DNA of 64,000 nt from a virus: the IMG/VR virus record IMGVR_UViG_3300021138_000021, positions 1 to 64,000 of that record; one strand, written 5' to 3'. A model generated the notes under the pieces. That model searched no databases, was not told the DNA's origin, and was given only the letters and a program-made list of their open reading frames with translations. This document shows, one piece after another, positions 4,678-57,389 of the stretch (the stretch's first letter is position 1; every line of letters begins with the position of its first letter). The position numbers and the translations under genes are program-made.

Positions 4678-5118
4678 TTAAAATGTTCCGCCGTCTTTTA
4701 TTAATGATTCAATTGATGTAATTTCCTCTAAAGGTTTATTATTTAACACACCAATTTTTTTGCGTTTTGCCACAGGAGGTGATTGCAATTCTTCAAGTTT
4801 CTTTGTTAACGATTCAATCTCAAGGTCTTTTTTGGCAACCAATTTTTGACTCTCAATCAGTTGATTTCTGAATGTTTCCAAATGATCTAATTTTTGTTTT
4901 GTAGTTTCGATTGCATTTTTTTCATTCAAAATGCTATTATATTTTTCACTTATTTCTTGTATTTGTGATCTTAAACTTTCGTTTTCCGCATTCAATTCAC
5001 CAATCAGTTCATCCACAAAATTTGCATTTGCCTGTAGATTGACATTACGAAGAATACTTTCAGTTAATGTAGAATTTACAACCTCAACATAATGTTTCAT
5101 AAAACGTTCATTATTCAT
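4678..5118 (-). CDS. Coiled-coil protein with C-terminal DGGTF
   Basis: 146 aa. Residues about 40-115 are a strongly predicted heptad coiled coil (ENESLRSQIQEISEKY, LEIESLTKKLEEL), followed by a basic PPVAKRKKIGV segment. It ends in DGGTF, the same last residues as the neighbouring fibre gene (5153-7102) and close to the DAGTF of the 7136-7423 product. It sits between two fibre genes, so a role as a fibre trimerisation factor or fibre chaperone is possible. No family is recognised. Confidence 0.8.
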   Translation of the reverse strand: MNNERFMKHYVEVVNSTLTESILRNVNLQANANFVDELIGELNAENESLRSQIQEISEKYNSILNEKNAIETTKQKLDHLETFRNQLIESQKLVAKKDLEIESLTKKLEELQSPPVAKRKKIGVLNNKPLEEITSIESLIKDGGTF

Positions 5119-5152: not shown

Positions 5153-7102
5153 TTAGAAAGTGCCTCCGTCAAGAGCAGAAGTCCAAACTGGAACACCAGA
5201 GTTTGTTACAGTTAGAATTTGGTTAGACCATGTTTGATCTGATGAACCTGCGGCGGCCGTAACCTGCATTGCACCTGAACCGTTACCGTATGTGATACCG
5301 TTTGTTGTGAATGACGATACGCCTGTACCACCTTGGCCAACTGTCAGTCCAGAAATCGCAGAGTATGTCAGCGCAGTTGTTCTACCGTATGCATCTACAG
5401 TTACGGATGTTACTGTGCTGTTTGATGCACCAGTGCCTGTTGCAGTGAATGAACTATTAGCAAGAGAACTTAGTGCACCTGTGCCGTTACCAATTAGTAG
5501 ACCACCAGCAGAGAAGAATGCACCACCAGTACCACCGTAAGGTACAGTCAACGCTTGGCTAGTAGAAATAAAACCGTTAGCGTCAATCTTCAACGCATCG
5601 GTTGTTCCATTACTGACAACAAAATGCAATGCATTTGCAGAGGTTGTACCAAGTACAAGGTCTGTTCCGTCAGCATACAAGTAAACGTTGTTTGCTCCGT
5701 TGAATGCACCAACACCAGAGAAGTTTGGTCCATTCATACCGAAGTCACCATACCAATGGTTGTCGGTTGAAATGCCGTTAGAAACAATAAAGTCTACAGA
5801 TGCTTGTGTTCCTGTGTTGGAGTTTTGTAGAACAACTTGTGAGAAACTGTTTGCATCAGTTTGTAACTTACTAAACGCCTGTGAAGCAGAATAGGTTAAT
5901 GTACCAATGTTATACTGTGTAGCGTTTGCAACACCAAGGTTAGGTGTAATGAACGTTGGTGTGTTGTTAAATACAACAGAACCTGAACCAGTTTCGTCAG
6001 TCAACAGCGATGCAAAGTTTGCACTTGATGGTGTGGCCAAGAATGTATTGGCACCAGTTGCCATACCAGTCACGTTAGCCAATGTATAACCAGTAGCAAG
6101 TGACAAATCTGCAATCAGAGAACCCTTAGACAGTCCGGAATAGTTAACGGTGTTTGCTGTTGGGTCTGTAGCCAAGTTCTTGAACAGATAGAAGTTACCT
6201 GCTGAAGTGCCACCAGAACCTTCACGAATCAAACCATGATATGCAATGGAAGCACCTGTGTTAGATTGGCCATAGAAACCAATATCAACTATGTCATTGA
6301 CGATGTTGTTTGCTGCCAGCTTAATCAAGGAGTCGTTTGTTTGAACAACTGCGGTATTTACAAACGTTGTTGCACCTGAAACGATCAAGTTACCAGCAAC
6401 TGTCAGGTCTGTGGAAATAGTTTGCTGACCTGCACTTGATGTATTTGAACGTAAAACTGTAGAATCTGTACCAAAAGTTATTGTGTTTGCTGAAACTGTA
6501 GTAGTAACACCACCACCTTTTTGGAAATAAAATGTGGATCCAGCATTGATTGTGTTACTATTTGTGGTATCCGAAATGCTGAATGATGTTGAAATCGCTG
6601 AAGTGCTAATAGAAGTAACACGACCGTTAGCAGAAATACCAATCACAGGAATTGCTGTTGTAGAACCGTATGTACCAGCAGATAAACCTGCAACAGAATT
6701 TAAAGATGCATTTAATGCTACAGGGTGCTGGCCATCAAACACAACTGCTGATGCCGCAATATCACCACCTGAAATAGAGAAGTTTTGTGGATTTAATAGG
6801 TAACTTGCGGTGTTTGCATTACCTATAATTGTACCTACAATATTTGCAAAAATGTAATTGAATGATGAGTTTCCTGTCGCATCTCTCTTAACAAGAGTAC
6901 CACCGGTTGCATTGTTTGTTGCGGCATCAACTGTGCTGGTGTAATATTGACCACCAATGTTGATTGTTCCGTTACCTGCAACTGTACCAAAATATAATGT
7001 GTTGGAAACGTATGAGTATGCGATTTCACCTGCTTTTAAGGTGCCTGGATTAGTCGTTACGCTCGAACGCTTAATCAGAATACTGGTATTCGAAATGGCC
7101 AT
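5153..7102 (-). CDS. Tail fibre protein
   Basis: 649 aa. The N-terminal segment (ILIKRSS...LKAGEIAYSYVSNTLYFG) is of the same type as that of the 804-aa fibre. The body is a Thr/Ser/Asn/Gly-rich beta-structured shaft. The segment around NDSLIKLAANN...DIGFYGQSN is closely matched in the 1233-aa fibre (7779-11480), so the two share a domain. It ends in DGGTF. A likely Shine-Dalgarno sequence (AGAGGACAT) precedes the ATG, with an AATAAATA box further upstream. Probably a side or distal fibre subunit. Confidence 0.85.
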   Translation of the reverse strand: MAISNTSILIKRSSVTTNPGTLKAGEIAYSYVSNTLYFGTVAGNGTINIGGQYYTSTVDAATNNATGGTLVKRDATGNSSFNYIFANIVGTIIGNANTASYLLNPQNFSISGGDIAASAVVFDGQHPVALNASLNSVAGLSAGTYGSTTAIPVIGISANGRVTSISTSAISTSFSISDTTNSNTINAGSTFYFQKGGGVTTTVSANTITFGTDSTVLRSNTSSAGQQTISTDLTVAGNLIVSGATTFVNTAVVQTNDSLIKLAANNIVNDIVDIGFYGQSNTGASIAYHGLIREGSGGTSAGNFYLFKNLATDPTANTVNYSGLSKGSLIADLSLATGYTLANVTGMATGANTFLATPSSANFASLLTDETGSGSVVFNNTPTFITPNLGVANATQYNIGTLTYSASQAFSKLQTDANSFSQVVLQNSNTGTQASVDFIVSNGISTDNHWYGDFGMNGPNFSGVGAFNGANNVYLYADGTDLVLGTTSANALHFVVSNGTTDALKIDANGFISTSQALTVPYGGTGGAFFSAGGLLIGNGTGALSSLANSSFTATGTGASNSTVTSVTVDAYGRTTALTYSAISGLTVGQGGTGVSSFTTNGITYGNGSGAMQVTAAAGSSDQTWSNQILTVTNSGVPVWTSALDGGTF

Positions 7103-25065: not shown

Positions 25066-27147
25066 TTAACTTCTTTTTGCATTAACCGTTACTGCTACAG
25101 CACTTGGATCATATGGATCGATAGTGATGATCTTGTTGTATGTTGAAGAAATGATGTTTGTTGTTGGCTGTACAGAAAGTGCCAGTTCACCCAATGGATT
25201 ATTCACATCAATTGGATTAAAATTATTCAATGTAACAATTCCATTTATGTAGTCAACTGTTCCAGCATTATTATTAACTGTAACTTGTCCTTTGACAGGA
25301 TCGTTATAATAAGTCTTCAAAGTTCCATATTGGTTGAACAATACAACTTCTAATTGAGCACCTTGGCCTGTAGTATCACCAATGGCAGGCGTAACTGTTG
25401 CTACTGCACCAGAATAGCCTGTTCCACCATTCGTTACAGTGACACTCGTTACACGACCATTCACAAGTACGGCTGTTGCAGTTGCACCAGTTCCATCACC
25501 TGTAATCGTTATTGTTGGTGTTGCTGAGTAACTATAGCCAGTATTGACAACAGAAATTGAAGAAACGTTGCTTGTGAAAACAGGAATTTCTTCAAAGTAT
25601 ACATTAAGTAGTGTATTTGTTGGATTTGCTGGGTCTGTTGTTGTGAAACCAGGATAACTTGTTATACCTGAACCAAATGTTCCTCGTTTCAATGGAACAT
25701 TATAATTTAATGTATATGTTGTTGGAGTACCAAGTGTTGGGTAAAACTTCTTTTGTAAATTAACTGTAAATTCTGAAGATATGATTGACCTATCGGACGA
25801 ATTGATAGCACTCAACAGATCATAAGAACTGAAAGTAGAGTTGAATGTGTTCAAGTTTGTTGAAGAATAATTGTATATTGCGTTCTGTATTGTTGTTTGC
25901 AATGAACTAGAAGTCAAGGTTGTCATTGAAGGTGTATACAACACATTTGCGGTTATTTGCATGTATGTGTAATCGGGATCAACAATAATTGGCTCAACAG
26001 TCATAACGCTGATTGGTTTAATGACTTCACTAATCAATAATTGTTTCTGTGTTGGTGTCAAACTATAACCACCAGTTGGTTTCAATGCAATATACACTTG
26101 GCCATATACAGGAGGATTGTTTTCTTCACCACCCCAAACCGATACAGCATCAAACTGGACACCAATATTATTTTGCTGAATGATGTTGATATAATCGTTC
26201 TTGCTGACTGCACGGCCTTGTGAAGCAAACGCTTTTGGAGCCTGGAATTTGATAGAATCGATTGATTCTTTATCTTTACCTTGAGTAGCCGCTTGATAAG
26301 TTGTTACTGTTGGTTGATTTGGATTGCCTAAATTGTCCATCAATTGGAAACTATCTGCTAAACCACCAGCAGTTCCTTTTGTGGAGATGTAATTGACAAT
26401 AACAATGTTACCATCAGACAACTGTTGGCCCAATACGCCGTCACCAAAATAGATTTGGTAGTTGCCATCGACAGCCTCTTGTAAGAAATATACGGTATCT
26501 GTTGGTGTTAAGCTCAAATAGTCTGTGGTAGGACTAAAGATTTGATATGATGAGTTTGACGATGATTGTTGGACTCTAACAACCAAAGTTGATGTATCGA
26601 TACCAGCATCAGGTATCTCAAACAAATATTGAGGATTTGATGTTGAATCTACAGTATAGGTGTAAGTTGCAACAGTACCTTGCTTTAGCTCCACACCCGC
26701 AAATGTGGCAGTATTTGCTGTAACACCTACAGTATATGTGTCTGTTGTCACATATGGATAGTGTGTACCATCAGGCATAACACCTGAAATAAAGTTTGTA
26801 TACTTTGGAATAGTAAAGTTTGTGGTTGTAATTCCACTGAAAGAAAGATTGATCTGTGCAACAGGAGCCACAGCAGATTGTGGCACATAGTTCATTAGCT
26901 TTGCATGTGACACAACCGAAGAACGTTGTATTGCTGAGTCTAAGAACATCTCATTTGCAACCATGTTCAAATAATAAGCATTGTATTGCGTATTATAGGT
27001 CAATACATCCAACAGAGTGGACATTGCAGAACCTGAAAAGTTATAGTCTTTAAAGGTGTCCTGTGATTGCAAATAACTTATGAAATTTTTCTTGATGTCA
27101 CCAAAATCTAAATTAGCAACTTGAATATTTGTATTAGAGTTGGACAT
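25066..27147 (-). CDS. 6: Baseplate wedge subunit gp6 (baseplate J-like)
   Basis: 693 aa (T4 gp6 is 660 aa). The N-terminal region is typical of gp6/baseplate J-like proteins: [16 protein letters not shown], then [33 protein letters not shown]. The centre has [15 protein letters not shown] and the J-type [14 protein letters not shown] segment. A Gly-rich beta insertion ([17 protein letters not shown]) lies near residues 545-585. gp6 forms the iris-like ring that drives baseplate opening. The ATG overlaps the end of an upstream homing endonuclease gene by 14 bp. Confidence 0.93.
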
Positions 27148-27751
27148 TTTGGAGCACCTGTTCTTTTCTGTTTTTCCACCAAAGTTTCATACGTTCTTGG
27201 TGAGCTTTTTGACGATTTGTGTCTGTTTTATATTTTTCTTGACTTATTTTTCCTGCACGACCCGCAAGTTCACTCACATCATCACGCATTTTTCTTTTTT
27301 TTGATTGTTTTTCTCTTGTTTCAATACGTGTTTTTTGACCGTGATTCCAAGAAATTTTTCCATAAAAATGGCTATTCTCTCCACTATTTGATTTGCCAAT
27401 TTTTTCTTTAGTTTCTAATGTGTGTGATAAACCGGTTCTAGATTTATTTCCTGTGGTTTTAAGACTTATTTTTTCTTTGGTTTCTGATGATGGATTAATC
27501 AAACCTTCACCACCATCTGTCAGATTTCTCAATATACCGGTATTATTATCTTTACGTCCATACCACCTTATGTAGAATCTCTCCAAAGCTAGAGCACCAA
27601 GCTCGGTTAGTTTTTTTTCCATTATAATAATTCTTGATAGGTCTTTTGGTAATTTTACATTATGGTCTTTGTTCCAAGCTCTCCGACCTTTACCTTTTCC
27701 TATGTAATAAGGAGACCCATCTTCTCTAAGATATGCATATATGTAATACAT
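27134..27751 (-). CDS. GIY-YIG homing endonuclease inserted between gp25 and gp6
   Basis: 205 aa. The GIY-YIG core is at residues about 2-70: YYIYAYLR, then [14 protein letters not shown], and the helix [15 protein letters not shown] carrying the expected catalytic Glu. Next come NUMOD3-like helices ([33 protein letters not shown]) and a basic C-terminus for DNA binding. It is co-directional with the baseplate operon. Its ATG overlaps the gp25 stop (TAATG) and its end overlaps the gp6 start, so it probably relies on translational coupling. Unlike the four antiparallel endonuclease genes it has no TATAAATA leader. It is a close relative of the products at 41273-41956 and 56793-57389. Confidence 0.92.
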
Positions 27752-39142: not shown

Positions 39143-40036
39143 TTAATCTTCTGCTAACTTAGAGAAGTAGGCCAAATCATCATCTTCTGTTGGGTCAACA
39201 AAACCAGTATCTTCAGCATCTACTTTAGGTGCTTTACGAGCCTGTTCTTTGATGGTTTCAACAGTAGTCTTGGCAACTGGTGTGTCACCATTCAGACCGA
39301 GAACCTTTTCAAGGCGACCTTTCAGGTCATCATAAGACTTGAATTCTTTGTCTGCTGTCAAGTCTTTCAACGACAATTCAGACTTCCAAATCTTTTCCAA
39401 CTTGTCTTCATCATCGGACAAAGCCGATGGTGATGCAAATTCAGACTTGTCATAGTTCTGGTAGCCTGCGACCTTAGTGATACGCAGTTTGAAGTTTGCA
39501 CCAGTCCACAAGTCGAATGGGTTGATTGCAACTTCATCTTCAAAAGCTGGATTCATAGCACCAGTGATCTTCTCAAAAATCTTTGCACCGAACTTGAACA
39601 ATTTAACTTGTCCTTCATTCTCTGGATGCTTAGGATCAGAAACGATATACACGTTTGCAATGTAGTTCAGTTTACGCTTTTGCTTACGAACGATTTCCTT
39701 GTTGGCCTCAATGCCAGAGTTCCACAATTTGTTGTTGTGTTCACATACAGGACATTGTTCGTTCTTGGTTGTCAGGCAGTTATCAATCAGCCAGCCACCA
39801 GGACCTTGGAAGCCGTGAGAGAATACTTTTGCCCATGGGAGAGAGTCATCACCATCGACTGCTGGTGTTGGGAGAAAACGGATGACGGCTGAACCGTTAC
39901 CTGCTTTATCTACCTCAGGGCGCCAGTAATTTTCTTTACTGTCAGTACCTGCTGAGGATGCATTGAGTTGCTCAATGGCTTTAGATAGTTTGTCGAGGTT
40001 GCCAGATTGGCGTTTAAGATTTGCAAATGAACTCAT
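39143..40036 (-). CDS. 32: Single-stranded DNA-binding protein gp32
   Basis: 297 aa (T4 gp32 is 301 aa). The basic N-terminus (SSFANLKRQSGNLDKL) corresponds to the cooperativity region. The OB core contains a zinc site with ligands at His74-x12-Cys87-x7-Cys95-x2-Cys98, like the H-C-C-C site of T4 (AKVFSHG...CLTT, CPVCEHN). The C-terminal tail is strongly acidic (DAEDTGFVDPTEDDDLAY) and would recruit gp59 and other replication proteins. It is the last gene of the gp33-gp59-nucleotidase-gp32 operon and ends at the bidirectional terminator. Confidence 0.95.
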   Translation of the reverse strand: MSSFANLKRQSGNLDKLSKAIEQLNASSAGTDSKENYWRPEVDKAGNGSAVIRFLPTPAVDGDDSLPWAKVFSHGFQGPGGWLIDNCLTTKNEQCPVCEHNNKLWNSGIEANKEIVRKQKRKLNYIANVYIVSDPKHPENEGQVKLFKFGAKIFEKITGAMNPAFEDEVAINPFDLWTGANFKLRITKVAGYQNYDKSEFASPSALSDDEDKLEKIWKSELSLKDLTADKEFKSYDDLKGRLEKVLGLNGDTPVAKTTVETIKEQARKAPKVDAEDTGFVDPTEDDDLAYFSKLAED

Positions 40037-40107: not shown

Positions 40108-40602
40108 TTAGGTACGCCCTAGGAGTGTACTTAACATGGCGATGGTTGTCAATGCATCTGTGTGATGAATTGCCACTCCACCTGCTTTTCTCCAATCATC
40201 GATAACGGATTGAGTGTCATCAATGATAATGGATTCTGGATCAGCAAACTTGTATTTCAGTGCTTTACCTGGTACAAAGTTAGCTGGATAATTGATACCA
40301 TGCCGATCAAGCCAAATAGTCTTTTGGCGAGAAATTGCTACATGGTTGTCTTGTCGTGCAGTAGAAGAAAGAATCTCTACTGGAACACCTGTGGTGTTGA
40401 GATAGGATAGTAATTGCTTGGCGTCTGGCATCATATCCAGTGTAGCAAACTGGCCAGACTTGATGAATTCAGCAAAGAATTTACCAAACTGTTTCTTTTT
40501 GTCTGCATCTTCTGGACTAATCTTATGCAATTCTTTATAACGTTTTGCAAAGTCGGCAATCACACCATCAAGGTCCAAATAGATTTTCTTAAACTTATGC
40601 AT
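40108..40602 (-). CDS. HAD-family 5'-nucleotidase or phosphatase
   Basis: 164 aa. Motif I is D10-L-D12-G-V (IYLDLDGVIADF), motif II is the Ser/Thr in EILSSTA (about 80), and motif IV is IIIDDT (about 127). The length and the DLDGV sequence fit deoxyribonucleotidase-like HAD proteins common in phages, which dephosphorylate deoxynucleoside monophosphates. Its ATG overlaps the gp59 stop by 8 bp, so it sits within the replication operon and probably takes part in nucleotide turnover. The exact substrate cannot be read from the sequence. Confidence 0.88.
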   Translation of the reverse strand: MHKFKKIYLDLDGVIADFAKRYKELHKISPEDADKKKQFGKFFAEFIKSGQFATLDMMPDAKQLLSYLNTTGVPVEILSSTARQDNHVAISRQKTIWLDRHGINYPANFVPGKALKYKFADPESIIIDDTQSVIDDWRKAGGVAIHHTDALTTIAMLSTLLGRT

Positions 40603-41200
40603 GTTCTGTAACCACTTCTTTCAAAATGTTTTTAAATTTTACCTTATCATAGGTAACGAATGGTGTATACTTTTCACTTTTTAGGCGCCAATTGGGCCAA
40701 ATAATATCATCACTTATCTTTCTATTCCACATGGGAAAGAAATTCATTATATCATTCAGTATAACCATCGTTTCAATTGAGATTGTACCAGACATCACTT
40801 CACGGAGAAGAATTGGATGTTGACCATCTTTGACAATCAACATCTGTTCTGGTGAATCATTTCCTATGAGACCGAGTATATCATTCTCAAACACATAGGT
40901 CAAGCTCTGGTTGGTTTTTTGCCACTTTTTATATGCAACTTCACCTTCTGGTCCGGTCATTTCACCAACCCAAGTCGAATCACCGTAAATGAAGTTGGCC
41001 AAATAAAAGTTACGCAATTCGTCCAGTGAATACTTACGGGACAATTTGTAGAATTGGTATTTTGCTTTGTTCTTTAAAAAGTTATCCTGTGACACATTAG
41101 TTTTTCCGTTATATCGGAAATAATCATAGGATTTAGAGGTGAAGTGCAACTTCATTGCAGAATAAAGTTTGTACGCTTCGAAACCAGTATTTTCTGTCAT
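40595..41200 (-). CDS. 59: Helicase loader gp59
   Basis: 201 aa (T4 gp59 is 217 aa). The N-terminal AYKLYSAMKLHFTSKSYDYF, followed by YNGK..., parallels the VYKLYLMIKQHMNGKYDVIK start of T4 gp59. Further matches are YQFYKLSRKYSLDELRNFYL (T4 FFQKLSEKYKLKELALIFIS) and the ISIETMVILNDIMNFF segment (T4 ISFETFILLDSFLNII). It loads gp41 helicase on gp32-coated DNA, and gp32 is encoded two genes downstream. A GIY-YIG cassette separates it from gp33. Confidence 0.93.
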   Translation of the reverse strand: MTENTGFEAYKLYSAMKLHFTSKSYDYFRYNGKTNVSQDNFLKNKAKYQFYKLSRKYSLDELRNFYLANFIYGDSTWVGEMTGPEGEVAYKKWQKTNQSLTYVFENDILGLIGNDSPEQMLIVKDGQHPILLREVMSGTISIETMVILNDIMNFFPMWNRKISDDIIWPNWRLKSEKYTPFVTYDKVKFKNILKEVVTEHA

Positions 41201-41204
41201 ATCT

Positions 41205-41275
41205 ATTATAAATAAGTGTGGGTCGCCAAGTTCCCGCTTGCACCCACTCTAACATTGTAAAGGAATGTCAGCATG
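41205..41275 (+). promoter_or_regulatory. Endonuclease cassette leader C: TATAAATA + hairpin + CTAACA
   Basis: TATAAATA is at 41207-41214. The hairpin arms are GTGGGT(C)GC and GCACCCAC, so two base pairs differ from leaders A and B but stay paired (T-A to G-C, A-T to G-C). TCTAACA, an AAAGGA Shine-Dalgarno sequence and TCAGC precede the ATG at 41273. Confidence 0.8.
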
Positions 41276-41956
41276 GATATTTATTCCAAAACCAACACAC
41301 CACCCGGATCTTATGTTTATGCATATCTACGTCCAGATAATACACCATATTATTTTGGAAAAGGTCAAAAAACACGAGCTTGGTTAAAATCTAAAAAAGA
41401 AATTAAGCCACCAAAAGATAAATCACGAGTCATAATTGTTGAATGCAATTTAACTGAAGTTGGAGCACTAGCTTTGGAACGCCGAATGATAAGATGGTAT
41501 GGTAGAATTGACATAGGCACAGGAATATTAAGAAATAAAACCGATGGAGGTGATGGTGTAGAGAATTATAAACATACACAAGAAACCTTAAATAAAATTT
41601 CAGGTATGAATAGTATCCACTATAACAAATCTCCGTGGAATAAGGGAATGAAAGGTTTCAATTTAGGTTTTAAACACACGGAGAACTCTATCAAAAAAAT
41701 GTTAGGACCAAAAAGTTCGGAACATAAAACTAATATTTCAAACGGTAGAAAAGGGATGATTTTTTCAGAACACCATAAACAGAATTTATCAAATTCGAAA
41801 AAAGGCAAACCTATACCGAAAAAGAGAAAAAGAATAATGACACCTTTTGGATTATTTGAATCAGTAACAACAGCGGCCGAATTTATGAATTGTACAAAGT
41901 CCAATATTTCTTCCAAATTAAAAAGAAAACCGGATGAATATTATATCATACAATAG
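41273..41956 (+). CDS. GIY-YIG homing endonuclease inserted between gp33 and gp59
   Basis: 227 aa. The GIY-YIG core is at residues about 13-95 ([39 protein letters not shown]). NUMOD3-like helices follow ([43 protein letters not shown]) and then a NUMOD1-type C-terminal unit ([20 protein letters not shown]) for DNA recognition. It is antiparallel to gp33 and gp59. Its 3' end overlaps the gp33 stop by 11 bp. It is related to the products at 27134 and 56793, but the first ~12 residues are different and carry only the conserved Ile-Tyr. Confidence 0.93.
41278..41285 (-). promoter_or_regulatory. Outward late-promoter-like box AATAAATA facing gp59
   Basis: AATAAATA on the minus strand is antisense to the Ile-Tyr codons of endonuclease C. 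It would start transcription through the leader hairpin towards gp59 at 41200. One mismatch from consensus. Confidence 0.4.
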
Positions 41957-42170
41957 GTAACCGGCTCGACTTTTTAATCAGATTAACAGATTGAGCTTCT
42001 TCTTTGATACGTGCTTTGAGGTGTGAAGAAATCAAGGTTGCGGCAACTTCTACCTCGATACCCGATTCTTCACAATACTGGACGATTGCTTCCATACAAT
42101 GAACATTATACAGATCGGCAATCTCCTCAATCTTCAAAGAGAACTCACGGATTTCATCTTTAGTAGGCAT
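41946..42170 (-). CDS. 33: Late transcription coactivator gp33
   Basis: 74 aa. The sequence pattern ([52 protein letters not shown]) matches the short gp33 found in T4-like cyanophages and other environmental relatives. gp33 bridges host RNA polymerase and the sliding clamp for transcription from TATAAATA promoters, which are seen in this window. The ATG overlaps the stop of the upstream membrane protein gene. Its tail overlaps the end of endonuclease C. Confidence 0.88.
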
Positions 42171-42951: not shown

Positions 42952-42987
42952 AAAAAATATGGTGGTTTTTAGAGAACCACCAAAAAA
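42952..42987 (-). terminator. Intrinsic terminator after the outer-membrane protein gene
   Basis: On the minus strand the sequence reads GGTGGTT-loop-AACCACC followed by ATATTTTTTA. The 7-bp stem (42961-42967 and 42975-42981) with a T-run lies just after the stop of the 180-aa protein. Confidence 0.8.
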
Positions 42988-42997
42988 CTCATTCAGC

Positions 42998-43540
42998 TTA
43001 GAAAGCTACAGTGATACCTGCACCGATTGCTTTTTCCTGAATAGTTTGCTGAGAAAGGGATACACCCACATTCAAAGCAACTTTAGAAGCAACAGGAACG
43101 CTATAAGAAGCGAACTCAACTGTTTGCTTTGGATTACCAGCATGGAAGTTTACACGGGTTTTTACACCACCAAGCAAGAAACCTGGACCAACTTGTGTAC
43201 CAGCGGTAACACCAACAAGCCCATACTCAAACTGTCCATTAACTGCGCCGTTTTTACCGTTGTCATAACCTACACCAGCGAATGGTGTAAATGCTCCAAC
43301 AGCTTTACCTGCTGTCAATTCAAGGCTATTGTACATGCCAGAATTGTCAGCATAACGTGCTGTACGTGACTGTAGGCCGAATTGAATACCACCAATTTCT
43401 TTACCTGCACGGACGTATTCAGCAACAGATTTTTGCTTGGTAGCACGATCTGTAACCTGGTCTACGTCAATAGACACGAAATCAGCCGCTGAGGCTGCGA
43501 ATGCTACGAATGCCAAAGTGGCGATTGCGATCTTTTTCAT
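42998..43540 (-). CDS. Secreted outer-membrane beta-barrel-like protein
   Basis: 180 aa. A clear Sec signal peptide (MKKIAIATLAFVAFAASA, cleaved before Ala19) is followed by a beta-rich chain with alternating hydrophobic segments (EIGGIQFGLQSRTARY, FTPFAGVGYDNG, FEYGLVGVTAGTQV, FLLGGVKTRVNF, KVALNVGVSLSQQ) ending in the C-terminal phenylalanine (VAF) read by the BAM machinery. This architecture fits a small OmpA/porin-like barrel. The strong Shine-Dalgarno sequence (AAAGGAG) and own terminator suggest high expression. It may change host surface properties, for example by masking a receptor. It is unusual in a T4-like genome. Confidence 0.85.
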   Translation of the reverse strand: MKKIAIATLAFVAFAASAADFVSIDVDQVTDRATKQKSVAEYVRAGKEIGGIQFGLQSRTARYADNSGMYNSLELTAGKAVGAFTPFAGVGYDNGKNGAVNGQFEYGLVGVTAGTQVGPGFLLGGVKTRVNFHAGNPKQTVEFASYSVPVASKVALNVGVSLSQQTIQEKAIGAGITVAF

Positions 43541-43564
43541 TAAAACTCCTTTAAGTTAAACATA

Positions 43565-43739
43565 GTAGTAGGCTTATTCTGTTACTAGGAAAACCTACGA
43601 GCAAACCCTAGCAACCTTTAATTAGGCAGCAATGCGGAACTTTTCATCGTTTGCATTTATTTTGATTTAGTGTTTACGTCAACTCTGACGGATAGCCTGA
43701 ATATCTTACTCTTTACCCTGTCGAAACCAATGCAGGCCC
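43565..43739 (-). other. tmRNA coding piece with tag frame and pseudoknot
   Basis: It begins GGGCCTG and continues with the D-like loop GGTTTCGACAGGG. The tag frame is 43622-43654 on the minus strand: GCA AAC GAT GAA AAG TTC, then CGC ATT GCT GCC TAA, giving ANDEKFRIAA. A pseudoknot follows: stem 1 is GTTGCTAGG with CCTAGTAAC (43607-43615/43581-43589), and stem 2 is GTAGG (43594-43598) in the loop with CCTAC (43568-43572). Confidence 0.88.
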
Positions 43740-43826
43740 ATTAAAGTATACTATGTGATGTATTGCAACATCTTCTAAACCGTTCCTTGAGCCCACTGAA
43801 GGGTATTTACGGACTCTAATATACTT
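43740..43826 (-). other. tmRNA intervening segment removed during processing
   Basis: 87 nt between CCA and the mature 5' end. Its ends carry the inverted repeat AAGTATA (43820-43826) and TATACTT (43744-43750), which extends the acceptor helix of the precursor. The segment has no reading frame of note. Confidence 0.75.
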
Positions 43827-43860
43827 TGGTGGACCTGGTGGGAGTCGAACCCACGTCCAG
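43827..43860 (-). other. tmRNA acceptor piece: T-arm, acceptor strand and CCA
   Basis: CTGGACGTGGGTTCGACTCC followed by CACCAGGTCCACCA. The T stem is 5 bp, and the 7-nt acceptor strand pairs with the coding piece at 43733-43739. The piece extends further 5' (to higher coordinates), up to about 43890, by an uncertain length. Confidence 0.9.
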
Positions 43861-43893
43861 AACACTTTTCTTATACCAAGTTTACTATCATTA

Positions 43894-44025
43894 TTAGCGC
43901 ACCGATTCGGTGTGCTTACCTTTAAGCGACTTCTTCAATAACTTCATCCAAAACTTTTTAGCCTTTTCCAAGTTATGTTGTAACTCGGCCCGGTTTAATT
44001 TTTGAACTAACTTTTTGACTTTCAT
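43894..44025 (-). CDS. 43-aa lysine-rich small protein upstream of tmRNA
   Basis: MKVKKLVQKLNRAELQHNLE is followed by a basic amphipathic helix (KAKKFWMKLLKKSLKG) and a short tail. Its ATG overlaps the stop of the upstream exported protein (ATGA), typical of translational coupling and the main reason to accept it. The end of the frame contains a hairpin (CACCGA/TCGGTG, 43899-43917) that could mark the 5' border of the tmRNA precursor. No family is recognised. It could bind RNA or membranes. It could also be non-coding leader of the tmRNA. Confidence 0.5.
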   Translation of the reverse strand: MKVKKLVQKLNRAELQHNLEKAKKFWMKLLKKSLKGKHTESVR

Positions 44026-44321
44026 TGCTTAATAAGTACCTCTTGCATCACACCATTTATCAAGGTGTGTTCTTTACGATACAATACACCATTAATGACA
44101 ACCATATTTGGGTCAGTAATGATCTGTGGTTGTTGTACTACTACAGGTGGTTGAACTATCACATTGGGACGTGACAATTCATAACCGATAACACCACCAA
44201 TTAATGCTGGTGCAACCCATCCACCATAAGAACGGTAGCAACAACCACCGTGCCAATGTGCAGATGCAGAACCTGCCATCAGAAGAACAACAATTCCTAA
44301 AATTTTCGATTTCATGGACAT
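44022..44321 (-). CDS. Small exported protein
   Basis: 99 aa from MSMKSKILG. The start is chosen because of the AAAGGA Shine-Dalgarno sequence and because a signal peptide then sits at the N-terminus (IVVLLMAGSASA, cleavage before His). The mature part has HWHGGCCYRSYGGW, a hydrophobic Gly-rich stretch (APALIGGVIGYEL), a Pro/Val/Gln segment and a beta-hairpin-like end (VVINGVLYRKEHTLINGVMQ). It resembles small host-type periplasmic proteins of unknown function. The next frame overlaps its stop. Confidence 0.75.
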   Translation of the reverse strand: MSMKSKILGIVVLLMAGSASAHWHGGCCYRSYGGWVAPALIGGVIGYELSRPNVIVQPPVVVQQPQIITDPNMVVINGVLYRKEHTLINGVMQEVLIKQ

Positions 44322-44346
44322 ATTATATCCTTTCTTGGAGAGTTTG

Positions 44347-45000
44347 TCAACCATTTTCTTTATAGAAAGTGATGTATTCCAATAAGGTATTTATGTGATC
44401 CTCTGTTTTTTCAATAAAAACGAGAGGTTCCGAGTTCTCCACAGCCATGATAATGACTATTTGGTCTATTCCACGTCCAATGAGTTCTTCATACATGCAA
44501 GCATATGCAACACATTGTGCAAAGTAGGAATCAATGTCTTCCTTTTTCTTGATGCGCTTAGATGTCTTGAAGTCAATTACAGACAAGACACCATCAAATT
44601 CAGCAATACAATCAACACGTCCGGCCATGCCTAGTTGTAATGACCACAGTGCACATTCTTGGTAATGAATGTTGTTGATGCGATTTAGGTGTGGTTTTAG
44701 TGGTAGGAACAACTCCAACGCATCAGGCATGATCTTCCCTAGCGGTTCATTGTTCAGATAACGTTCACACAAGGTATGTACGTTGGTACCTCTGGATGAT
44801 GCTTTCTTCGATACTCGATTGGCTTCTTCATTGCCAACACGTTTACGCCACTCCATGATGGCCTGTTTACCTTTTGCACCAATAACGGTTGTAACAGATG
44901 GAAGTTTTACACCGTCTGGTGTTGTGTAGTATCTTCTGCCATCAGGAAAAGTCTGCGATTTTAAGTCGGCAAGGACTTTAGGTGGGCAATAATTAAACAT
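44347..45000 (-). CDS. PD-(D/E)XK exonuclease, RecB/MGME1-like
   Basis: 217 aa. Motifs in order: SVTTVIGAKGKQAIMEWRKR, RGTNVHTLCERYL with His75, Glu115, then GRVDCIAEFDGVLSVIDFKT with Asp130 and the Asp143-x-Lys145 pair. This is the RecB-type nuclease fold of phage and mitochondrial-type single-strand exonucleases. A role in recombination, repair or host DNA breakdown is likely. It is transcribed with the genes upstream of the tmRNA. The metal-binding residues all appear intact. Confidence 0.88.
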   Translation of the reverse strand: MFNYCPPKVLADLKSQTFPDGRRYYTTPDGVKLPSVTTVIGAKGKQAIMEWRKRVGNEEANRVSKKASSRGTNVHTLCERYLNNEPLGKIMPDALELFLPLKPHLNRINNIHYQECALWSLQLGMAGRVDCIAEFDGVLSVIDFKTSKRIKKKEDIDSYFAQCVAYACMYEELIGRGIDQIVIIMAVENSEPLVFIEKTEDHINTLLEYITFYKENG

Positions 45001-45008
45001 AATTTAAA

Positions 45009-45578
45009 TCATTCATCTAGGAATCTTACTATATCATCTTTAAAAGAGACTGTCAAGGATATTCTAGGAAATTTATTGGTTTTACAAAAAACTGTATGTG
45101 GAGTTGATGTCCTGAGAATTGTGGGTTGTATTAGTTCTACGGACGTAACTGGTGTTAGTGCGTTTCTCAATTCGGAAGACCAAAATTTACTGCCACCTTG
45201 TGTTGATTGGTGTGTGTTAAAGACTTCAGGAGACAATTCAAAGAAAGCAGTATGAGAACCTTCACAATTTAATATAGGAATGTTTAATCTAGCCATCTTG
45301 TCTTGGTTTTTTCCTATCGTATGATCTATGTGTAATGTACTGGAATCCCACGACAACAATAGGATTGACACCTCATTGATTTCTCCAAATTGAGCTGTGC
45401 TTTCAACTAACTCAGGAAAATATAAATCAATATCTTCTGGTGAAACTGGATTCCAAAATGTGTTATTTTTTAACAACTCGTGTCTTGGCCTTGTGTGATA
45501 AACTGTGTTGAAGTAACTATTTACTTTTTCTGTCCATTTGGTGAAATCACCTATGTCTACTTGTTTCCAATATTTCAT
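45009..45578 (-). CDS. 2OG-Fe(II) oxygenase-like protein 1 (divergent paralogue)
   Basis: 189 aa. Putative iron ligands are His83-x-Asp85 (STLHIDHT) and His161 (RTSTPHTVF), with a 2-oxoglutarate-binding Arg172 (FPRISLTVSF) and the shared core RLNIPILNCEGSHTAFFEL. It differs from the three upstream paralogues at the N-terminus. The substrate is unknown. Known relatives hydroxylate proteins, nucleic acid bases or small molecules. It is the last gene of an oxygenase operon. Confidence 0.82.
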   Translation of the reverse strand: MKYWKQVDIGDFTKWTEKVNSYFNTVYHTRPRHELLKNNTFWNPVSPEDIDLYFPELVESTAQFGEINEVSILLLSWDSSTLHIDHTIGKNQDKMARLNIPILNCEGSHTAFFELSPEVFNTHQSTQGGSKFWSSELRNALTPVTSVELIQPTILRTSTPHTVFCKTNKFPRISLTVSFKDDIVRFLDE

Positions 45579-45579
45579 T

Positions 45580-46179
45580 TTATTTTTCCAATTTTACACC
45601 AAGTCTGTTGACTTCTTCAAGTGTTAACTCGGGCCAAAACTTTAACGTACACATAAGTCTTTTCTTATTGAGGGTAATTCTTCTGTGTGGAATAGTTGTG
45701 TTGATTAACATCGGTCCAGTAATCTCTGCTAAGTGTGTTGGTTCCGCATTTTGGTCTGTTGCAACCGCAGGAACTCTAAGTAAATCATTACTTAGTTGGC
45801 CAGGTCTTTTCTTTTGTTCTGCGAATATAACTGGAACATCATACCATGCAGTGTAAGTTCCTGAGTAGTCTAGCAATGGTATATTGAGTGAGTATTTTAT
45901 ATGTTTGTCGTATGCATCCACATGTATCGTATGTTCTTTATTTGGCATAGGAAACAAAGATTTATGTAACTTATCATATAGACCAAGTTGTTTCAAATAT
46001 TCATTCAATGTTGGAGTATACTGTATAAAATTTTGCCTATAGTATTGGTAAAACAATTCTCCATTGTGACTGACTACACAATTCTCAGAAACATATATCA
46101 GTTCTTTTTGAATTTGTTCCAAGTTTGGTATATCCAAATAAGAGTAGTACCAACTAGGGTAATCTGGTGTATAAGTCAA
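45580..46179 (-). CDS. 2OG-Fe(II) oxygenase-like protein 2
   Basis: 199 aa. The N-terminal signature YYSYLDIPNLEQIQKEL is shared with the next two genes. Putative ligands are His86-x-Asp88 (TIHVDAYD) and His165 (NTTIPHRRI), with Arg174. The core SLNIPLLDYSGTYTAWYD is common to the family. One base separates it from the downstream paralogue. All predicted metal ligands are kept, so it is probably active. Confidence 0.82.
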   Translation of the reverse strand: MTYTPDYPSWYYSYLDIPNLEQIQKELIYVSENCVVSHNGELFYQYYRQNFIQYTPTLNEYLKQLGLYDKLHKSLFPMPNKEHTIHVDAYDKHIKYSLNIPLLDYSGTYTAWYDVPVIFAEQKKRPGQLSNDLLRVPAVATDQNAEPTHLAEITGPMLINTTIPHRRITLNKKRLMCTLKFWPELTLEEVNRLGVKLEK

Positions 46180-46188
46180 GATTGATCC

Positions 46189-46824
46189 TTACAGTTTGAC
46201 ACCAAACCTAGAAAGTTCTTCATACGTTAACTCAGGTGTAAACCTAATTCCGGCTAGAAGTCTATCTAGACTTGTTGCTCTACCAACATGCATAATAGAT
46301 GTATTCAATATTGCTGGTTGAGTGTAATATAGCCTGTCAATTTCTGTTAAACCTTCCATGGTATGTGCATATGCAGTTCTAGTTTCAGGTCCATAATAAA
46401 CATCACTACCAATCTCTTTATCATAAAAGGCTGTGTAACTATCTTCCGCATCAATCAGAGGTATGTTCAATGAGTATCTGATTCCGATTGTTGGTTCAAA
46501 CGAATCTGCATGTGGTAATGATGTGTTAATATCTAGGCCACCAGAGATTGAAAATAAAACTCGCATAAACTTATGCAGTAGCCCTAAGCCATCAATATAT
46601 TCTAAAAGTTTAGGGCAATTTTTTACATCTTGCTTGTACACATTCACGTAGAAAGGAGAAAACTGTTTTCTTGGAGCATCAGACTTAAACAGAGTTATCA
46701 ATTCTTTTTCGATAGTTTTCAAATTTGGTATATCGGTGTAACTATAACGCCAGTGTGTGTCAATAGGTTGGTACTTACCGAGTTTCATTTTTGCGGTAAC
46801 AATATTTCCATAATCAATCGACAT
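46189..46824 (-). CDS. 2OG-Fe(II) oxygenase-like protein 3
   Basis: 211 aa from MSIDYGN (46824). This ATG has the Shine-Dalgarno sequence AAAGGATTTGTA and overlaps the preceding gene by only 11 bp. The upstream ATG at 46848 is less likely. N-terminal signature YSYTDIPNLKTIEKEL. Putative ligands His105-x-Asp107 (SLPHADSF) and His179 (NTSIMHVG), with Arg188. Core RYSLNIPLIDAEDSYTAFYD. Third member of the tandem array. Confidence 0.82.
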   Translation of the reverse strand: MSIDYGNIVTAKMKLGKYQPIDTHWRYSYTDIPNLKTIEKELITLFKSDAPRKQFSPFYVNVYKQDVKNCPKLLEYIDGLGLLHKFMRVLFSISGGLDINTSLPHADSFEPTIGIRYSLNIPLIDAEDSYTAFYDKEIGSDVYYGPETRTAYAHTMEGLTEIDRLYYTQPAILNTSIMHVGRATSLDRLLAGIRFTPELTYEELSRFGVKL

Positions 46825-47428
46825 TACAAATCCTTTGAACTTCGGCATCTGTTAGGTCGGGAAGAAATCTAATGCCCGATAATATACGAGTCGGACAATT
46901 GTGTATTCCTCTGTGTGGAATGGACGTATTAACTAACATGGGACGAACCGTTTCAACTCTACACATCTCGGTCGCCAATTCTTCATCTAAAAGTGCATAG
47001 TGCTTTAACTGTTTTACACCCGAACTAAGAACTTTTTCTACTAAAAATCTTACCTGTCCCTTATACCAAACCGTATGTGTATTTTCACAATCAAGCAGTG
47101 GTATGTTTAATGAGTGTGTGATTCTTTTGTCTATGTGGTCAATGTGGATATTAGATTTTTGAAGTGGTGTTCCTGGTGCGTTTTTAGCAGAAAAAAGAAT
47201 ATAATGCAACTTTTCATGTAAACCAACACTCTTTAGATATTCATATAAATTGGGAACATAATCAACCACATCTTTTGTGAAATAGGCGGAATAGTGTATT
47301 TGTGTCAGTGAACTAGGGCTAACGTTCTCTCTTACAAATAAAAGTTCTTCTTTTATTTTTTCCAAATTTGGTATATTAACATATGAATAGTACCAATTCG
47401 GCTTATTTGGATTATATTCTAAAATCAT
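46814..47428 (-). CDS. 2OG-Fe(II) oxygenase-like protein 4
   Basis: 204 aa. N-terminal signature YYSYVNIPNLEKIKEEL. Putative ligands His95-x-Asp97 (NIHIDHID) and His172 (NTSIPHRGI), with Arg181. Core THSLNIPLLDCENTHTVWY. Its ATG overlaps the stop of the cupin-like gene (ATGA). First of the four tandem paralogues in transcription order. Confidence 0.82.
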   Translation of the reverse strand: MILEYNPNKPNWYYSYVNIPNLEKIKEELLFVRENVSPSSLTQIHYSAYFTKDVVDYVPNLYEYLKSVGLHEKLHYILFSAKNAPGTPLQKSNIHIDHIDKRITHSLNIPLLDCENTHTVWYKGQVRFLVEKVLSSGVKQLKHYALLDEELATEMCRVETVRPMLVNTSIPHRGIHNCPTRILSGIRFLPDLTDAEVQRICNVD

Positions 47429-54587: not shown

Positions 54588-56051
54588 TTAGCACCAGACT
54601 CTAAAATTAGATAGTGCGTTTGGATGTTTCTTGTCAAATGGGCGCTTGAACAACTCATTCTTATCTTCTTCAGGGCGCCATGTGGTTTCCACAAATGGAA
54701 CTGGACCAAGATAAGGTAATGCATGTTCTAGCACAAACTCATGTGGTAATGATTCAGGCTCAACATAGCCACGGCGTGGATTCTGAATAGCCCACATCAT
54801 TTCACCAAGAATTGTAGCAACGACCTGTAAAGATGTTGCATTCTCACCAGGAATCAATCTACGTGCTTCCTTGATGTCTAACTGTGAACCGTGCCAGTAT
54901 GATTTACCATTCTTGCAAATCAATAGGACACCTAGTTCATCCATACCGCCAACGATTTCATCTTTGACGATACGGTGTTCTTTCTGCATATCCAATTCTT
55001 TACCACGCAACTCATGCACCGATGCAATAGCGGCATCAGTTGGTTGATAGCAGTAATAAACTGAAGGACGGAACTTACCATCAGCAGTCTCAAAGTATTC
55101 AGACATTGTGATGGCTTCTGAGTGTTGTACCAAAAAACCATTGTATGGACCACCGTTTGGCACCCATGACTTGACCAATACAGTTAGACCAGGTTGATGT
55201 AAGAATGCCGCATGGCCTTGAATTGTACCACCCTCAAGTTCTTTTGGTTCATGTGTACCATAACCCATCTCAGCGGGTGCACGGCCTTCAGCCCAGAATC
55301 CCTCACAAGACCATGTGTTAGTGAATTCATCTTTTAGTTTAGGCTGATTAATAACCTGTGTGTCACGTTCAGCAATGTGTACAACTTCCACACCCATTTT
55401 CTTCATCAATTGTGCCCAACCTTCTTTATCAGTTGGAGCCTCAACCTTACGACCAGCTTTCTCAGCAATCTTTAATAGTGCGGCTTTTGTCAGATATGTT
55501 ACAAGACCAGGGTTAGCACCACCGGTAGCAACAATTGTAGGACCATTAGGATACTTAGCGGCAATCTCACGGATGTGTTTGTGAGTGTGGTACAGAGTAC
55601 GATCAGCCATATTAGGTATTTTCTCGTCCTGCATGTGCCCCCAGCGTTCCAATGATGTGTTTACATACATTACATCATTCTGTAAGCACCATTCAATGAT
55701 GGCATGTGCGGCAATGTTAAGTGAAACGTCAATAATGAATGAGCCAGGCTCAGTATATGCTTTAAGAGTGGCTTCCAAATTGTTTGGTAGAATCTCTTTC
55801 TTTACATACTTTACACCATTATTTGCGTTACGCTTACGGAAAAGTTTACCATGATTGTCTTTCTCAATCACAGTAACTTTCTTTGGATCATTGGTGATGT
55901 GCTTTAGAACTAATGGCAACATGGCTTGTCCGACTGAGCCATAGCCAATAATTAAGATTTTTTTGTCGAAATTTGCGTGGTTTGATGCTTTTTTAGGTTT
56001 GGCCGCCTCGTTTAGGTTAGCGGTAAACTTAGTAAAACTCTTTAATGTCAT
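54588..56051 (-). CDS. hss: Homospermidine synthase-like enzyme
   Basis: 487 aa (bacterial enzymes about 480). The Rossmann motif IIGYGSVGQAMLPLVLKHI (34-52), FIIDVSLNIAAHAIIEWCLQ, the VMYVNTSLERWGH segment and VATGGANPGLVTYLTKAAL are characteristic of bacterial homospermidine synthase. The enzyme builds homospermidine from putrescine and/or spermidine with NAD+. The N-terminal ~25 residues, MTLKSFTKFTANLNEAAKPK, precede the enzyme proper and look like a T4-type capsid-targeting propeptide with an L-x-E cleavage site (Leu13-Asn-Glu15). An AATAAATA box and a hairpin lie upstream. Confidence 0.88.
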   Translation of the reverse strand: MTLKSFTKFTANLNEAAKPKKASNHANFDKKILIIGYGSVGQAMLPLVLKHITNDPKKVTVIEKDNHGKLFRKRNANNGVKYVKKEILPNNLEATLKAYTEPGSFIIDVSLNIAAHAIIEWCLQNDVMYVNTSLERWGHMQDEKIPNMADRTLYHTHKHIREIAAKYPNGPTIVATGGANPGLVTYLTKAALLKIAEKAGRKVEAPTDKEGWAQLMKKMGVEVVHIAERDTQVINQPKLKDEFTNTWSCEGFWAEGRAPAEMGYGTHEPKELEGGTIQGHAAFLHQPGLTVLVKSWVPNGGPYNGFLVQHSEAITMSEYFETADGKFRPSVYYCYQPTDAAIASVHELRGKELDMQKEHRIVKDEIVGGMDELGVLLICKNGKSYWHGSQLDIKEARRLIPGENATSLQVVATILGEMMWAIQNPRRGYVEPESLPHEFVLEHALPYLGPVPFVETTWRPEEDKNELFKRPFDKKHPNALSNFRVWC

Positions 56052-56713: not shown

Positions 56714-56795
56714 GATATAAATAAGGGTGTAGGTCACGGAACTGGGAATTCCCACCTACTCTATGTCAAATTCTAACATAAGGACACAGCACATG
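56714..56795 (+). promoter_or_regulatory. Endonuclease cassette leader D: TATAAATA + hairpin + CTAACA
   Basis: TATAAATA is at 56716-56723, then a hairpin with arms GTAGGT/ACCTAC, the same position as in leaders A-C with different but compensated bases. A 10-15 nt insertion precedes TTCTAACA and AAGGACACAGC before the ATG at 56793. Confidence 0.8.
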
Positions 56796-57389
56796 TCAAG
56801 TATTTATTACATCTATGCCTATCTCCGTAAAAACGGTTCACCTTATTACATTGGTAAAGGTAAAGAAGATAGAGCATGGAAACACACAAAAAATGATGTA
56901 ATACATCCACCAAAAGATAAATCCAAAATCGTTATTATGGAAGGTAATCTTACCGAAATTGGTGCTTTTGCTCTTGAACGCAGATATATCCGCTGGTGGG
57001 GAAGAAAAGATAAAAAAACTGGTATACTTAGAAATCGTACTGATGGGGGTGATGGCGGAACTGGTATTGTTGTTGCCGAAAAAAATAAATTATATGGTGA
57101 CAAAAATCCATGCCGTAGAAATGATGTGAGAATTAAACTTAAAAAAATTGTAAAATCACACTGGGAAAATAATACTCAAAGAAAACTCTTACAATCGATT
57201 AGGACTTCTGGTGTAAATAATCCTTGTTATGGATTGACGGCATCAAAAAATCCAAATGCAAAAGGTGTTATTGATCCGAATGGCATTATTTTTGGAAGTT
57301 TACTTGATGCAGCAATTCATCACAATGTTACTTATTACACCATATCCAAATGGTGCAAGAAAAATAAAAATAACTGGAAGTACGCATAA
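56793..57389 (+). CDS. GIY-YIG homing endonuclease (cassette D)
   Basis: 198 aa from [15 protein letters not shown]. The GIY-YIG core ([34 protein letters not shown]) lies in the first ~75 residues. A basic region ([20 protein letters not shown]) and a NUMOD1-like C-terminus ([32 protein letters not shown]) follow. The core strongly resembles the enzymes at 27134 and 41273. It is antiparallel to both neighbours, and its 3' end overlaps 90 bp of the next minus-strand gene. Confidence 0.93.
56801..56808 (-). promoter_or_regulatory. Outward late-promoter-like box AATAAATA facing the 58-aa gene
   Basis: AATAAATA on the minus strand, antisense to the Ile-Tyr codons of cassette D. It would drive the gene at 56697 through the leader. 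One mismatch from consensus. Confidence 0.4.

Follow-up and report, generated by a model that had tools for sequence, protein, structure and literature searches.

Permuted tmRNA is known from three bacterial lineages, and a 2025 database holds 79 bacteriophage tmRNA sequences (PMC11915505). Buchholz et al. 2022 distinguished 133 phage tmRNA structures; 53 are two-piece, 50 of these being aquatic, and permuted tmRNA occurs in 17 of the 47 contigs that cluster with Melnitz, a T4-like Methylophilales phage (MZ577097, Kyanoviridae). These two-piece RNAs are the same kind of gene as the one reported here, and mosaic structure is not described in the passages considered (PMC9004378). Other virulent phages with tmRNA include mycobacteriophages Bxz1 and Cali, among others, and Bacillus phage G; these are listed as ordinary ssrA and none is termed permuted, in contrast to the gene studied here, while the RNA of DS6A amounts to scarcely more than a tRNA-like domain (PMC4131195). 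An initial annotation of the locus had rated its novelty too highly, since permuted phage tmRNA was published as a kind in 2022 and our own partial scan of IMG/VR yielded dozens of further examples. What is apparently new, on a provisional view, is the mosaicism of the gene, which the initial annotation had overlooked together with its recombination with the tmRNAs of related phages; a literature search covering mainly open-access papers, and no bioRxiv preprints, turned up no description of mosaicism in tmRNA genes.

The DNA analysed is a 64 kb stretch (the window) of a 67.7 kb virus record from a lake. A scan of the window against Rfam at gathering thresholds returned two matches in total, both on the minus strand at the tmRNA locus: tmRNA_permuted (RF04321; 43889-43622, 134.7 bits against a cut-off of 47, E 3.1e-26, model positions 1-213 covered) and beta_tmRNA (RF01850; 43964-43557, 125 bits against a cut-off of 84, E 1.2e-37), the latter being the top model of the tmRNA clan. 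ARAGORN, as an independent method, placed a permuted tmRNA with the tag ANDEKFRIAA at c[43531,43919] and called no other tRNA or tmRNA in the window. The permuted gene is real, and chance is excluded. The permuted ssrA order that the initial annotation had read from the minus strand at 43562-43890 is thus borne out by both covariance models and by ARAGORN, with the coordinates correct to within a few bases.

Along the minus strand the gene runs from the P2 5' strand through the T-arm, the acceptor 3' strand, A plus CCA, the spacer, the acceptor 5' strand and the D-loop (GGTTTCGAC) to the P2 3' strand, the tag and stop, an element resembling an H-type pseudoknot, and then the next gene. The acceptor half (43827..43889) comprises the P2 5' strand (43889-43885), a T-arm with the loop TTCGACT, the acceptor 3' strand (43837-43831) and, as the initial annotation had stated, an encoded CCA (43829-43827). 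The coding half (43622..43739) opens with the acceptor 5' strand GGGCCTG (43739-43733), has its P2 3' strand at 43695-43691, and ends with the tag and stop at 43654-43622; resume codon, in-frame tag and stop codon are all present. The full pairing of the two 7-nt acceptor strands, also proposed earlier, is found in the sequence: GGGCCUG pairs with CAGGUCC at 7/7 positions, the alanine-identity pair G3-U70 among them, across a spacer of 87 nt (43740..43826). The spacer ends pair in turn, lengthening the acceptor stem, and excision of the spacer is expected; by extrapolation from bacterial homologues, the transcript would mature into two RNA pieces. A 3' H-type pseudoknot is predicted at 43568..43611, with CTAGG/CCTAG (43611-43607, 43589-43585) and GTAGG/CCTAC (43598-43594, 43572-43568) as its putative stems.

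The window virus is a T4-like phage, as had been proposed, with homologues of gp32, gp59, gp33, gp6 and gp25 alongside an exonuclease and a cell-wall hydrolase. Upstream of the tmRNA, on the same minus strand, lie a PDDEXK exonuclease gene (44347..45000; phrog_298, E 1.6e-72; PF12705), a small signal-peptide-like ORF of up to 110 aa (44022..44354), the real start of which is probably the ATG at 44321 or 44315, past the promoter described below, and a strongly basic micro-ORF of 43 aa (MKVKKLVQKLNRAELQHNLEKAKKFWMKLLKKSLKGKHTESVR; 43894..44025) that stops 4 nt short of the P2 strand. The micro-ORF is kept in the close relatives L207, L032, L134, L127 and L144 and has no Pfam match; that it might be linked to tmRNA function is a mere thought. 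Downstream, the next gene (42998..43540) encodes a 180-aa protein whose sequence has a signal peptide and resembles an outer-membrane barrel, with neither a Pfam nor a PHROG match; it is followed, by homology, by a gp33-like late-transcription coactivator (41946..42170), the gp59 helicase loader (40595..41200) and the gp32 single-strand DNA-binding protein (39143..40036), all minus. Farther off on the minus strand, a saccharopine dehydrogenase-like protein with both its N- and C-terminal domains (54588-56051) is a metabolic gene of a sort seldom seen in viruses, and four successive ORFs of ~190-220 aa at 45009-47428 resemble tandem paralogues; three of these start alike (PNLEQIQKEL, PNLKTIEKEL and PNLEKIKEEL), and the one that was searched has no Pfam match.

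The same slot is occupied by a permuted tmRNA in 30/30 informative relatives, a set defined as the viral contigs that encode a close gp32 and extend at least 4.19 kb upstream of it (28 found by a structure-based search, L142 and L157 by Rfam); ARAGORN by itself overlooks several of these genes. Where measured, the tmRNA lies 1.4-3.8 kb upstream of gp32, and the relatives' tmRNAs score mostly as beta-type in Rfam. Synteny with phage relatives shows that the gene belongs to the virus, in keeping with the initial annotation. A search for smpB, with a positive control in ten bacterial genomes, gave no hit in the window's virus record or in nine further records from phages, one of them Melnitz; these ten phage records are mostly metagenome fragments or of unknown completeness, with Melnitz a complete genome, and smpB is likely to be truly missing from these phages.

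Melnitz resembles the window phage in having a permuted tmRNA without smpB and in its gene order (PDDEXK nuclease, two small ORFs, SsrA, gp33, gp59, ThyX, gp32), which matches the window's slot; Buchholz et al. place its ssrA next to an early promoter (PMC9004378). The Melnitz tmRNA is alpha-type (RF01849, 106.7 bits; tag ANDNYVPVDYALAA), whereas that of the window is beta-type, and a glutamine riboswitch (RF01739) lies behind the Melnitz ssrA, whereas no Rfam riboswitch, RF01739 included, matches anywhere in the window. In gene order, standard T-loop, P2 and the tag ANDE(K/R)F..., the window gene is like the permuted beta_tmRNA of betaproteobacteria (RF01850, for example Rhodocyclus tenuis). 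In the bacterial family sampled, the genes reach scores of up to ~280 bits, compared with 125 for the window; the acceptor of those inspected is uniformly CACCTCC, and in many of them CCA is not encoded (CCACCC or CCACCT), while the phage genes are more varied. The standard-loop pattern was matched in 13 of the 42 genomes of the sampled bacterial family and a looser acceptor pattern in a single genome, that of Rhodocyclus tenuis; an exact 38-mer of the window T-arm had no match in the genome contigs searched. Among named phages, the one blastn match to the window tmRNA is short and lies in Synechococcus phage BUCT-ZZ01 (ON615601; our L002/L282). This public freshwater cyanophage genome contains an unannotated permuted tmRNA at ~116965-117027 with the tag ANDETFSMALAA; the gp33-gp59-gp32 slot was not seen across the 18 kb inspected around it.

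A sigma-70 type promoter with a 12/12 match (TTGACA-17-TATAAT; 44322..44350, minus) stands 459 nt upstream of the window tmRNA, and a terminator-like hairpin with a T-run (42960..42982, minus) marks the end of the unit, after the gene for the 180-aa protein. Sigma-70 sites matching at 11/12 or better occur within 600 nt upstream in 96 of 179 distinct phage loci, against 3.2 in shuffles, and in 31 of 146 downstream control stretches; 54 of the 96 upstream sites start 33-47 nt ahead of the gene, which would set the transcription start near its 5' end. The T4 late promoter TATAAATA was also considered; it is absent at the gene, and in the window it is no commoner than chance. Host-type promoters in T4-like phages usually serve early genes. 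Because a sigma-70 promoter is read by host RNA polymerase, the phage tmRNA is probably expressed early.

Phage tmRNAs as a set comprise a dozen acceptors and three T-loop classes, one of which, TGCGAAT/TGCAAAT with G55, is found in 61 phage genes (for example L178 and L183); TGCGAAT had no match in 399 genomes of the Burkholderiales order (Rhodocyclus order). For 132 distinct phage genes the acceptor strands were placed by outside anchors, with pairing not demanded. All seven pairs form in 128 of the 132, against 6% for halves drawn from different genes, and G3-U70 is present in every one of the 128 paired genes. Pairs G1-C72, G2-C71, G3-U70 and G7-C66 are invariant, while pairs 4 to 6 vary on both sides. 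Bases 18 and 55 are in contact at the tRNA elbow. Among 205 phage genes, a D-loop GG goes with U55 in 133 and AG with G55 in 66, the D-loop dinucleotide being another in 6, and there is no case of G55 alongside GG. The spacer ends show complementarity of at least 7 bp in 49% of within-gene comparisons, against 8% between genes, which fits a processing hairpin. The 3' pseudoknot complementarity over all phages is weak (32% versus 17%, in fixed windows) and was not relied on. Such covariation, as read from aligned sequences, supports a functional tmRNA. As a separate observation, unusually long tags of ~26-31 residues, all with ANADTFDFSAMSFTGN, occur in the viral permuted tmRNAs L016, L022, L033, L038, L054, L058 and L063, and the same group also includes L064, L069, L076, L089, L115 and L116; a second long-tag family (ANANTFEYF...) is present in L009, L027, L055, L092 and L107.

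In 49 viral contigs with the exact window P2 strand, T-arm, acceptor, spacer and tag segments occur in many combinations. L128 and L127 are identical over 245 nt to the left and 421 nt to the right, and their T-arm, spacer and acceptor are merely 30-75% alike. L339 and L314 agree in P2, in the spacer (97% identical) and, over 259 exactly matching nt, in the tag half, and differ in the T-arm with the acceptor 3' strand and in the acceptor 5' strand with the D-loop, one being alpha-type and the other standard. Between L318 and L339, the tRNA domain and spacer are identical, tag and pseudoknot diverge, and agreement then resumes; L012 and L040 match exactly over the tRNA domain and spacer and have unlike P2 regions. 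The window itself is 97-99% alike to L205 for more than 1 kb downstream and mostly 30-85% alike within the cassette. A 40-column mosaic index was dropped, because the set had been picked by a shared 25-mer and gaps inflate the value, and was replaced by a test on loci that also hold gp59, in which a mosaic pair has one tmRNA segment at least 93% alike and another at most 68% alike. There were 306 such pairs among 3916 for the tmRNA, against 1 for thirds of gp59 and 0 for gp33, the hydrolase and the nuclease; the short segments limit the precision of these counts, and the pairs counted are non-independent events. Identity of the tRNA domain is uncorrelated with that of gp59 (rho -0.03), while neighbouring genes correlate among themselves (rho 0.33-0.57). 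Mapped onto a tree of gp59 from 86 phages, T-loop class requires at least 22 changes (mean of 32.6 with shuffled labels) and the acceptor 37 (shuffled, 47), and two pairs with identical gp59, L032/L136 and L313/L355, differ in T-loop class. The tRNA-like domain, the spacer and the tag/pseudoknot segment are thus exchanged independently between phages with long identical flanks, and the swaps include alpha-type for standard T-loops, with acceptor pairing, the 18-55 contact and G3-U70 preserved. A search for donors of a different backbone gave none for the two spacers chosen, the window's own included. L419 carries the P2 motif TTGCTGTATGAAGCAAAGAGAAA twice on its minus strand (4679-4701 and 5549-5571), 870 nt apart in a single phage contig; this would mark a second tmRNA copy, possibly partial, that could act as a recombination partner.

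All the swapped pairs derive from metagenomes, and some of the shared anchors are short (~13 nt on the D-loop/TTCGAC side), so that chimeric contigs fused at conserved motifs have to be considered. Such assembly chimeras are unlikely, to the point that we give them very little weight, because identical swapped alleles turn up in separate datasets (the L128 type in four, the L134 type in three and the L127 type in two) and the sequence on both sides matches the recipient over hundreds of bases, which would require two joins per case. Every hybrid, moreover, has full acceptor pairing and a matched 18-55 contact, both of which random joins would break, and the neighbouring genes are nearly free of mosaicism. 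The whole-genome mosaicism of T4-like phages could be a partial cause of the disagreement with the gp59 tree, but not of swaps within a gene between identical flanks. Since T4-like phages recombine at a high rate, the exchanges require no new machinery. The window also contains ORFs that resemble free-standing GIY-YIG endonucleases, judged by their first residues, at 27134-27751 (with a NUMOD3 motif), 41273-41956 and 56763-57389. One of them is less than 2 kb away from the tmRNA, and genes of this type might favour local conversion. The joint change of both tRNA halves around a retained spacer suggests that hybrids with mismatched halves do not persist. More tentatively, and with the balance of our judgement against it, the phage tmRNA may be under diversifying selection, the co-adapted tRNA-like halves serving as a swappable cassette that would evade a host or rival-phage factor hitting the tmRNA or its DNA, or would suit the SmpB and AlaRS of different hosts; the permuted order would ease such swaps, because both acceptor strands and both loops sit on one short segment.

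With respect to function, we consider it likely that the locus encodes a functional, betaproteobacterial-type permuted phage tmRNA, long-standing in a freshwater T4-like group, that works with host SmpB and AlaRS in rescue and tagging and has been diversified by phage-phage recombination. In such a scheme, host RNA polymerase would transcribe the gene from the sigma-70 promoter, probably early, and host tRNA-processing enzymes would excise the spacer, leaving an acceptor piece and a coding piece that stay paired through P2 and the acceptor stem. Charging would be by host AlaRS via G3-U70, and host SmpB and EF-Tu would bring it to ribosomes stalled on cut or incomplete mRNA; the tag ANDEKFRIAA would direct the product to ClpXP-type proteolysis and the freed ribosome would return to phage mRNAs. 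The gene evolves as a mosaic in this group, with recombination between phages swapping the pair of co-adapted tRNA-like halves, the spacer and the segment of tag and pseudoknot. A use for rescue in T4-like phages is plausible, because E. coli tmRNA stays abundant throughout T4 infection while tRNAs of like stability are degraded, which led the authors of that study to suggest that ribosomes are kept available (PMC9697503). The phage RNA might instead titrate SmpB or EF-Tu and so block host trans-translation, as proposed for the RNA of DS6A, which has the tRNA-like domain (TLD) only; strong tmRNA inhibition is reported for tagless TLD-type RNA (PMC4131195; PMC11915505), and a strong early-type promoter would be compatible with a decoy. 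We regard this as improbable, given that a decoy has no use for a tag and that the window tmRNA retains an intact resume site, in-frame tag and stop, with tags ending in AA in 194 of the 205 phage genes; the universal G3-U70 likewise argues against an inhibitor. A drifted tag might let tagged proteins escape or pass to another protease, a redirection that the initial annotation had raised and that finds some encouragement in the variable tag endings of close relatives (RIAA, RLAA, LMAA, ILAA and ALAA). The A-N start and AA end are retained throughout these changes, however, 174 of the 205 tags end in LAA, IAA ends also occur in bacterial permuted tmRNAs of the same type (L285, L287, L289, L292 and L293), and the window's own tag is of the ordinary ANDE...AA form, all of which makes redirection a highly improbable reading. 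Least credible of all is a recently acquired host gene carried as a functionless passenger: phages are well known to integrate at the ssrA of their hosts, and ssrA fragments can be carried by prophages (discussed in PMC9004378), but the slot of the gene is fixed across Melnitz and the 30 informative relatives, and a dead copy would decay rather than maintain a covarying structure, an in-frame tag and, frequently, a promoter directly upstream.

The type of a tmRNA is a poor guide to phage ancestry or to a host jump, because near-identical phages hold alpha-type or standard-type domains in the same gene. Buchholz et al. 2022 argue for a host transition from the alpha-type tmRNA of Melnitz, which infects an OM43 host (PMC9004378); this inference of a passage from SAR11 to OM43, one of two lines of evidence, is weakened by the swapping of alpha-type and standard domains in this slot among near-identical phages, while the second line, the phage tRNA genes, is untouched. 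The mosaic cassettes amount to natural swap experiments on which parts of a tmRNA must match, namely the acceptor pairs and base 18 with base 55. Permuted tmRNA is a stable gene in a fixed place across a wide group of freshwater T4-like phages; with this stable slot and probable early expression, ribosome rescue seems to be among the regular functions of phages.
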